Notes under the pieces: model-generated
What the model was told of the DNA's origin: nothing
Database searches by the model: none
The model's input: the letters and a program-made list of their open reading frames with translations, nothing else
Shown: piece after piece, positions 23,575 through 25,265 of the stretch
How positions within the stretch are numbered: position 1 is the stretch's first letter
How the letters are laid out: every line of letters starts with the position of its first letter
Source: Pseudomonadota bacterium
GTDB taxonomy: Bacteria > Pseudomonadota > Alphaproteobacteria > Micavibrionales > Micavibrionaceae
Assembly: GCA_016198545.1 (NCBI GenBank)
Contig: JACQIJ010000060.1
Span: 1-33,506 of the forward strand
DNA: 33,506 bases
Direction of reading: 5' to 3'
Translations under genes and position numbers: made by a program

Positions 23575-24486
23575 ATGGCTGCGCCCACCCCCCTTATCCC
23601 GTTTGACGACCGCGACGGATACATCTGGCTGGACGGTAAAATGCTGCCCTGGCGCGATGCGAAGCTGCACGTTCTGTCGCACGGGCTGCACTATGGGGGA
23701 AGCGTCTTCGAGGGCGAACGATCCTACGGCGGCAACATCTTCAAACTGCGCGAACACTCGGAAAGGTTTATACGCTCCGGCGACCTGATAGATATGAAAA
23801 TACAAATGAGCGTAAAGGAGATCGAAAACGCCTCACGCGAGGTGCTGGAAGCGAACGAAATCATAGACGGGTATATTCGCCCGATCGCATGGCGCGGCAC
23901 GGAACAGCTCGCCATTTCCGGTCAGCAATGCAAGGTTCATGTCGCCTTCGCCTGCTGGCCGTGGCCAAAATACTTCTTCCCCAAGGGTGGCGAAGGGAAA
24001 GGCATCGCGCTAAAAACATCGAAATGGGTACGGCCCGATCCGCGCTCCATGCCGGTGCAGAGCAAAGCCGCCGGGATCTATATGGTCGGCACGATGGCCA
24101 AGCACGCGGCAGAGCGCGACGGATACGACGACGTGCTGATGCACGATTATAAGGGACGCGTCGCCGAATCATCGGGCTCCAATCTTTTTATCGTAAAAAA
24201 TGGCGCGATGAAGACGCCCGTGCCCGAATGCTTTCTGAACGGCATCACGCGGCAGACGATCATGCAGATGGCAAAGGACATGAAAATCCCGCTTGAGGAA
24301 GGCACAATCATGCCGGAAGACCTGAAAAGCGTTGATGAAATCTTTGTTACCGGAACAGCCGCGGAAGTCACGCCGGTTGGAAAAATAGACGACCGCGAAT
24401 ACGAAACCGGCCCCGTGACCAAACGCCTGATGGAAGCGTATTCGGATCTCGTCCGCGGCAAGGGCGCGAGCACGGCCGCGGCGTAA
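23575..24486 (+). CDS. ilvE: Branched-chain amino acid aminotransferase
   Basis: 'HGLHYGGSVFEGERSYGG', 'SKAAGIYMVGTMAKHAAERDGYDDVLMHD', 'VAESSGSNLFIVKNG', 'EIFVTGTAAEVTPV'. Confidence 0.93.
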   Translation: MAAPTPLIPFDDRDGYIWLDGKMLPWRDAKLHVLSHGLHYGGSVFEGERSYGGNIFKLREHSERFIRSGDLIDMKIQMSVKEIENASREVLEANEIIDGYIRPIAWRGTEQLAISGQQCKVHVAFACWPWPKYFFPKGGEGKGIALKTSKWVRPDPRSMPVQSKAAGIYMVGTMAKHAAERDGYDDVLMHDYKGRVAESSGSNLFIVKNGAMKTPVPECFLNGITRQTIMQMAKDMKIPLEEGTIMPEDLKSVDEIFVTGTAAEVTPVGKIDDREYETGPVTKRLMEAYSDLVRGKGASTAAA

Positions 24487-24533: not shown

Positions 24534-24598
24534 AAAAACCACAGATAGACGCAGATGAGTACGGATAAGCCGTTTATCTGTGTTCATCCGTGGTTTTT
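24534..24598 (+). repeat. Decamer-phased imperfect inverted repeat, likely ilvE (possibly bidirectional) terminator or short mobile repeat
   Basis: AAAAACCACAGATAGACGCAGATGAGT-acggataagcc-GTTTATCTGTGTTCATCCGTGGTTTTT: 27-position stem (20 Watson-Crick, 5 G.U, 2 A.C), 11 nt loop, A-tract and T-tract at the ends; lies between convergent stop codons. Confidence 0.8.
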
Positions 24599-24614: not shown

Positions 24615-24633
24615 AACGCGGAGAAGCGGAGTG
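24615..24633 (+). repeat. Short purine-rich motif AACGCGGAGAAGCGGAGTG next to the hairpin
   Basis: Directly visible; two near copies of GCGGAG (gcggagaa / gcggagtg). Confidence 0.5.
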
Positions 24634-24656: not shown

Positions 24657-25265
24657 TTATTCTTCCCCGCCCGCCTCATCGCCCCAGACGGCTTTTAAAC
24701 GGCCGTCGCGCCCGCACCCGCCGCGGTAATATTTATACTTCCACGGATTTTTGATGTAATAATCCTGGTGGTATTCTTCCGCCGGCCAGAATTTCGCGGC
24801 GGGCAGGATTTTCGTCACTGTTTCTTTTCCAAGCCGCGATTCAATTGCCGCCTTCGACTCTGCGGCAAAACGCTTTTCTTCATCATCCGCGGCAAAAATT
24901 GCGGACGCATATTGATTTCCCTTATCGCAAAACTGCCCTTCGGCATCGAACGGGTCGATGTTGCGCCAAAAAACCTCCAGCAACCGGGCATAGGATATCT
25001 TCGACGAGTCGTACGTTACCTGCACGACTTCCTTGTGCCCCGTGCCACCATCGGACACTTCTTTATAAGTGGGATTTTCCACCCCGCCGCCCGCATAGCC
25101 GGACTGCACATCCGTCACGCCGTCAAGCCGGTCGAACGGATACTCCATGCACCAGAAACAGCCACCGGCGAAAATTGCGGTTTTTAAAGCCGGGCTTTCG
25201 GCGCGCGCTGCCGGCGACAACAGAAAAACCGCCGCCAGAAACATCATGATCAAACGCATAAGCAT
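24657..25265 (-). CDS. msrA: Peptide-methionine (S)-S-oxide reductase MsrA, exported
   Basis: 'AIFAGGCFWCMEYPFDRLDGVTDVQSGYAGG', 'GHKEVVQVTYD', 'EEYHQDYYIKNP'; N-terminal signal peptide. Confidence 0.95.
   Translation of the reverse strand: MLMRLIMMFLAAVFLLSPAARAESPALKTAIFAGGCFWCMEYPFDRLDGVTDVQSGYAGGGVENPTYKEVSDGGTGHKEVVQVTYDSSKISYARLLEVFWRNIDPFDAEGQFCDKGNQYASAIFAADDEEKRFAAESKAAIESRLGKETVTKILPAAKFWPAEEYHQDYYIKNPWKYKYYRGGCGRDGRLKAVWGDEAGGEE

Follow-up and report, generated by a model that had tools for sequence, protein, structure and literature searches.

An intergenic hairpin between ilvE- and msrA-like genes is probably a small relic of a GxxExxY-linked, mobile-element-like repeat family

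The window, that is, the whole stretch of 33,506 nucleotides analysed here (contig JACQIJ010000060.1 of assembly GCA_016198545.1, from a bacterium of the Micavibrionaceae), contains a hairpin in the gap between two convergent genes (Table 1), a setting that had been read from the letters alone and is borne out by the profile matches PF01063 on the + strand and PF01625 on the - strand. The original prediction described GAT triplets starting at 24544, 24554 and 24564, followed by ATC at 24576 and 24586, in units of 10 bp, and all five positions are as claimed. The recount of the pairing between the arms (24534-24560 with 24572-24598) is also identical to the earlier one: 27 pairs, composed of 20 Watson-Crick, 5 G.U and 2 A.C, with no other mismatch. 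The + strand folds at -32.1 kcal/mol (z -5.95) and the - strand at -28.0 kcal/mol (z -6.39), values reached by no shuffle on either strand; that is to say, the fold lies far above chance on both strands, and the bias towards one strand that had been claimed is slight, since the two are about equal when set against shuffles. The two-unit arm was absent from 200 first-order Markov simulations of the window, and no Rfam family exceeded its gathering score in the window. As in an intrinsic terminator, a stable hairpin is followed by a T run; its stem is long and of moderate G+C, and the left A tract is the equivalent possible terminator tail for - strand transcripts.

Table 1. Features of the ilvE-msrA gap and its flanking genes (positions in the window).
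Feature	Position	Strand	Basis
Class IV (branched-chain) aminotransferase, ilvE-like, upstream convergent neighbour	23575-24486	+	PF01063 E 8e-49
Probable small hairpin copy (MITE-like), AT-type GxxExxY-linked repeat	24534-24598		pair count, folds, other copies
Left A tract, pairing with right T tract	24534-24538		sequence, pair count
Left arm CCACAGAT-AG-ACGCAGAT-GA-GTACGGAT, third unit degenerate	24539-24566	+	sequence; pattern match C211:24539-24556
Centre between arms, AAGCCGTTT	24567-24575		sequence
Right arm, inverted, CCACGGAT-GA-ACACAGAT on - strand	24576-24593	-	pattern match C211:24576-24593:-
Right T tract, possible terminator tail for + strand transcripts	24594-24598		sequence; terminator-like scan match 24554-24588
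Solitary arm, other subtype (GGAG type), AACGCGGAG-AA-GCGGAG	24615-24631	+	lone match within window
msrA, peptide methionine sulfoxide reductase, downstream convergent neighbour	24657-25265	-	PF01625 E 4e-61

A solitary arm of the GGAG subtype, AACGCGGAGAAGCGGAG, is located 17 bp downstream of the hairpin and ahead of the msrA stop. Arms of this type had 0 occurrences in the Markov simulations of the window, and they also surround GxxExxY genes (the protein family described below) at three other loci, L226, L254 and L280. The solitary arm is probably the remnant of a second element, and it points to repeated arrivals of such elements in the gap between ilvE and msrA.

The hairpin had been proposed to belong to a widespread repeat family that is poorly explained, and this proposal stands, with further copies in the same genome, in relatives and in other phyla. 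The shared architecture is CCACAGAT-NN-ACACAGAT...ATCTGTGT-NN-ATCTGTGG; the copies in the window's own genome share the form CCACRGAT-NN-ACRCRGAT followed by its inverted copy, with variants, and their centres range from about 10 to 120 bp. At least three further places were found in this genome, namely C169:4305-4379, which came from the suggested BLAST search, C152:10037-10193 and a degenerate one at C86, the last two and the other C169 arm being added by pattern search. The C152 copy (L025 1031-1210), located between recN-like and ligA-like genes, holds an unrelated CGTCATTGCGAGG...GCAATGAC palindrome, and the C169 copy (L002 1405-1565) sits inside the arms of another palindrome, of the CGTCATTCCGGCG type (CGTCATTCCGGCGCAGG...GCGCCGGGATGGCGG). 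Such nesting in and around unrelated palindromes is a mark of insertion. The repeats nested in or around these two copies resemble CGTC REPs and Rickettsia palindromic elements.

With one mismatch allowed, the arm occurs in 53 of 143 relatives, at 0 to 90 matches per genome, and a reversed control pattern gives 0 or 1 per genome; the counts are very patchy, with sharp differences within one genus. A scan of 84,980 species genomes, in which both arms were required with exact octamers, returned at least 119 two-arm stretches from at least 9 phyla. Among the matches listed are Cyanobacteria (Scytonema, Nostoc, Chlorogloeopsis), Planctomycetes, Acidobacteria, Proteobacteria, Chlamydiae, Chloroflexi, Spirochaetes, Verrucomicrobia, Bacteroidetes and others. 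The repeat is also carried by plasmids of Thiodictyon, Aulosira, Scytonema and Anabaena, and it was absent from annotated phages. Like MITEs, the small copies have inverted terminal repeats, contain no ORF and occur several times per genome. Small hairpins of the AG type are rare among the relatives (3 of 143 with the exact pattern), and bursts of small copies seem strongest for the AT type.

The anatomy of the family was compared over 122 copies, in which the octamers are fixed by the search and the dinucleotides between them are left free. The spacer dinucleotides pair between the arms in 51% against 43%, and in 54% against 37%, in shuffles, so that the covariation check intended to back an RNA hairpin comes out barely above chance. 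Immediately beyond the arms, the flanking base matches in 90% of copies against 40% expected, being A, G or T according to lineage and hardly ever C; stem covariation is therefore weak in the spacers and strong solely at this flanking base, which itself varies with lineage. On this pattern, separate recognition of each arm fits better than a helix maintained by compensatory substitutions. Called ORFs of at least 100 codons contain none of the 122 copies.

In full-size versions of the repeat, AGAT-type arms lie 400-420 bp apart and enclose a gene for a GxxExxY protein, whose start codon can fall within the arm (ATGAACACAGAT = MNTD). The protein is a full member of its family by profile scores (TIGR04256, E 2e-36 and 1.5e-37; PF13366 PDDEXK_3, E about 1e-35). 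There is thus, outside the window's own genome, a full-size relative with the same ends plus a gene, as for MITEs and their parents; this gene inside the full-size forms is the main point of the analysis and lay beyond the view of the original prediction. In the reverse test, 120 GxxExxY genes were collected, 4 of them chosen by their arms and the rest taken, irrespective of repeats, by protein profile in the relatives and in 25 repeat-bearing genomes of other phyla, and the upstream flank was locally aligned with the inverted downstream flank. At z>4, inverted arms bound 94 of the 120 genes, as against 1 of 63 control ORFs of the same loci; the other 26 genes fall below this threshold, 3 of them having direct arms. 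Named records with an arm-bounded gene include Bacteroides finegoldii, Bernardetia and Sphingomonas parapaucimobilis, and in 5 of 8 plasmid records the same test gave weak or no inverted arms. With genomes taken as independent, GxxExxY is present in 23 of 29 relatives with at least two arm matches and in 30 of 114 others (p 4e-7). At the level of sequence, the association between arms and GxxExxY is strong and reproducible.

Other ORFs also lie in or beside arm-bounded units (L364 591-947, L382 2452-2811, L386 357-926 and L400 593-970), one of them a T5orf172/MUG113 protein; it is as though cargo genes could travel between the arms. On a viral contig from IMG/VR (L412 1949-2440), a GxxExxY module with AAAG-type inverted arms overlaps the start of a phage-like ORF on the opposite strand. 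This was the one GxxExxY locus in the viral searches, and annotated phages gave none, so that phages as the main vehicle were rejected.

The window's own genome has a single GxxExxY gene (L211 1434-1960, on C187), which is divergent (168 aa, 63 bits), lacks recognisable arms and sits between sdhA-like and sdhD-like genes. An active source of the element was not seen in this assembly, which is 90% complete in 234 contigs, and the source copy may be missing from it or extinct. Three relatives, G011, G065 and G051, have many hairpins and no GxxExxY match; most of the relatives' genomes are draft assemblies, which may break at repeats.

As for the protein itself, 22 diverse GxxExxY proteins share an invariant set of positions: GxGxxExxY, D71, E81-x-K83, Q95-xxx-Y99, N112-F113 and R122. 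The combination of D...ExK with QxxxY constitutes the active-site motifs of RecB/Cas4-type PD-(D/E)XK nucleases, and Cas4 profiles match GxxExxY weakly (best E 2e-4). Sequence search gave no solved structural homologue, and the single-sequence AlphaFold model (pLDDT 41) was too poor for a fold search. By its motifs, GxxExxY is a small protein of the Cas4/RecB-like PD-(D/E)XK family, and it is likely to be an active DNA nuclease. In the open-access literature, no description was found of the repeat or of its link with GxxExxY, nor of any function or repeat association of GxxExxY, PF13366 or TIGR04256.

The arms around GxxExxY genes are arrays of short units whose general pattern is C[AG]C-NN-A[T/G] or close to it; 2-4 such units follow AACC or one of its variants. 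The units found are CACAGAT, CACGAAT and CACGGAT; CACCAAG, CACGAAG, CACTAAG, CACAAAG, CACAGAG and CGCGGAG; and CACAACG and others, so that besides the CCACAGAT type there are further arm motifs such as CCACCAAG, CCACGAAG and CCACAGAG. Mapped onto a 94-protein tree, the arm class (AT, AG or CG) requires 8 changes, as against a mean of 30.9 when shuffled (minimum 25 of 2000), and the finer subtypes require 33 against 59; for the AT/AG class among the relatives alone, the figures are 2 and 12.7. By these counts, arm type follows the GxxExxY protein tree. The spacing of the units differs as well, being 10 bp (56) or 9 bp (10) in the AT type and 8 (66), 9 (61) or 10 bp (22) in the AG type. Helical phasing, which the original prediction had called compatible with a protein-binding array, is accordingly lost as a principle, because the 10-bp spacing of the hairpin belongs to AT-type arms and related arms are spaced at 8 or 9 bp. 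Small and full-size copies also agree at their borders: in 8 of 8 genomes with both forms of AGAT type, these being the cases that could be paired by hand rather than a random sample, the base outside the arms is the same in the hairpin and in the GxxExxY copy at one end at least. Agreement often extends to the next bases, as with TCGA in Chlorogloeopsis, CAGT in an Anaerolineae genome and TTAT in a Victivallales genome.

Occupied and empty gene junctions can be compared at several places. Between fabD and fabG, a GxxExxY module is present in S. parapaucimobilis, while the two genes are about 25-35 bp apart in S. paeninsulae and S. meliloti; between radA and an FAD-dependent gene, B. finegoldii has the module and Parabacteroides distasonis a gap of 13 bp. 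Between atpD and atpC, an arm-bounded GxxExxY gene is found in G047, G036 and G028, accompanied by one further ORF each in G047 and G028 and by a T5orf172/MUG113 ORF in G036, and the junction without GxxExxY measures 87 bp in G011 (of the same genus as G047), 9 bp in G012 and 17 bp in G021. Moreover, one hairpin of G011 is absent from the matching place in its congeners G075 and G065. Judged by the relatives that lack the insert, GxxExxY modules were inserted at operon junctions. No target-site duplication was identified, the empty sites being too diverged to tell; no orthologous empty site was obtained for the window copy, msrA not being beside the IlvE gene in the loci read (IlvE was sought in 38 genomes).

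The atpD-atpC junction (L382-L411) spans 9-87 bp in some relatives and holds assorted small inserted ORFs in many others, which makes it look like a hotspot for insertions within an essential operon. The G011 gap (L383), which has no GxxExxY, contains AGTTA-type 8-bp inverted repeats (AGTTATAAGTTAATAGTTAAAAG...CTTGTAACTATTAACTACTAACT), perhaps yet another arm type.

The reading preferred here, to which a probability of roughly 70% is given, places the hairpin in a family of GxxExxY-linked, mobile-element-like repeats, as a small, MITE-like copy that is non-autonomous, mobilised by the nuclease and perhaps serving as a terminator at this place; in short, a little-known mobile element has probably left a stripped-down relic here. 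The full-size form would consist of two inverted arms of 8-10-bp units around a GxxExxY gene, whose nuclease would recognise the iterated units, or a cruciform made from them, and cut at the arms, so that the unit is copied or moved into intergenic DNA. The nuclease would serve its own gene in cis and gene-less copies in trans. The window copy may in addition double as a bidirectional transcription terminator, a weaker part of the proposal, made because the genes are convergent and A or T tracts lie on both sides; such a role is plausible as a by-product. The odds are about even for a wider reading, in which these repeats form an undescribed class of mobile elements in many bacterial phyla, whose sole protein, GxxExxY, would recognise its own lineage-specific arrays of 8-10 bp, move or copy its own gene and cargo genes between the genes of operons and spread hairpins in trans, the ilvE-msrA hairpin being one copy.

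Alternatively, GxxExxY may be a mere passenger, or a maintenance or defence gene, and other machinery, e.g., host repair at hairpins or an unlinked recombinase, would move the arm-bounded units in which it lies. This would suit the AGAT arms around another ORF in a genome without GxxExxY (L364 591-947), the cargo ORFs in the arm-bounded units of G047, G036 and G028, and the 17 exact arm matches in G011 and 15 in G065, genomes that yet have no GxxExxY match. It is nevertheless considered unlikely, for the gene recurs inside arms across unrelated phyla, no other common gene was noticed in the arm-bounded units examined, and a passenger would not need the agreement between protein phylogeny and arm sequence.

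A far smaller chance is left to the hairpin being just an intrinsic bidirectional terminator for the convergent pair. The strong hairpin, the flanking A and T tracts and the convergent genes all fit a terminator, and so do two features of the family: 27% of flanks of the 122 copies have 5 or more T among the first 8 nt beyond the stem, versus 7% further out, and divergent gene pairs are under-represented around the copies (8 of 95 versus 19% of background pairs). However, the majority of copies have no T run, and the cross-phylum sequence, the patchy copy number, the nested copies and the GxxExxY link are left unexplained; as a sole account, a terminator is already contradicted by the spread of the family and by the arm-bounded GxxExxY genes (94 of 120). 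The plausible terminator of the original prediction therefore survives in its local setting and falls as a whole account at a single locus, and a terminating role is compatible with the mobile-element reading as a side effect.

It is more doubtful still that a RAYT (Y1 tyrosine transposase) mobilises the hairpin as a REP sequence. The repeat is short, palindromic, intergenic and multi-copy, and Y1_Tnp occurs in 14 of 29 relatives with at least two arm matches versus 24 of 114 others (p 0.005, genomes taken as independent). But there is no Y1_Tnp match in the window's genome, of the 12 genomes with 10 or more arm matches only 5 have one, and among genomes without GxxExxY the relation to the repeat vanishes (1 of 6 versus 17 of 84, p 1), whereas GxxExxY stays associated with the repeat where Y1_Tnp is lacking (p 0.005). 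A GTAG tetranucleotide at one end is the mark of GTAG REPs (PMC3733652), and the present repeat has no such end; with no Y1 association once GxxExxY is accounted for, this candidate was set aside. The least probable reading is a regulatory array of phased sites bound by a transcription factor or a nucleoid protein of the host, which would account for the iterated, evenly spaced units and, as separate binding sites, for the weak spacer covariation between the arms, but not for a scatter over phyla with no common neighbour gene, absence from most close relatives, spacings of 8, 9 and 10 bp in sister subtypes, or a position around a nuclease gene.

If the nuclease-linked reading is correct, the family resembles several known systems in part. 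GTAG REPs with their RAYT/TIRYT tyrosine transposases (REPtrons and TIRtrons; Di Nocera et al. 2013, PMC3733652) are likewise short multi-copy intergenic palindromes, in which a full-size unit has the same ends flanking one small nuclease-type gene and the small copies are presumably moved in trans; the differences are that the gene here is of the PD-(D/E)XK, Cas4-like kind instead of an HUH/Y1 transposase, and that the ends are built from 2-4 arrayed units, each of 8-10 bp. CGTC REPs and Rickettsia palindromic elements (PMC3733652) are also widespread palindromic intergenic repeats with no known transposase, but they have another sequence and architecture and no partner gene has been reported for them. 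The MITEs of insertion sequences share the inverted terminal repeats, the lack of a gene and the origin by internal deletion of a same-ended parent, while the parent here has no DDE or other known transposase and no target duplication was identified. Homing endonuclease genes and other nuclease-driven selfish genes are comparable in having a small nuclease gene as the sole common gene, in insertion at gene junctions and in patchiness; unlike them, the arms here are multi-copy repeats that also occur without the gene, and 0 of 122 lie inside host ORFs. The multicopy sequences of Geobacter genomes (PMC2700814, PMC2996986; 2009, 2010) are reported as unexplained intergenic repeats too, some palindromic and some made of short direct repeats, and might include relatives of this family.

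In summary, the link joins intergenic repeats of the CACAGA, CACCAAG and CACGAAG types, which are found across phyla and unexplained, with GxxExxY, a family known by its motif alone. It gives a testable hypothesis, namely a nuclease that recognises its own arms, together with a classification of the repeats by arm motif, and it is a candidate new route by which genes enter operons, among them atp, fab, pdh and rpsP. It may be speculated that a Cas4-like nuclease acting on repeat arrays, if true, would bear on the origin of Cas4-type enzymes.
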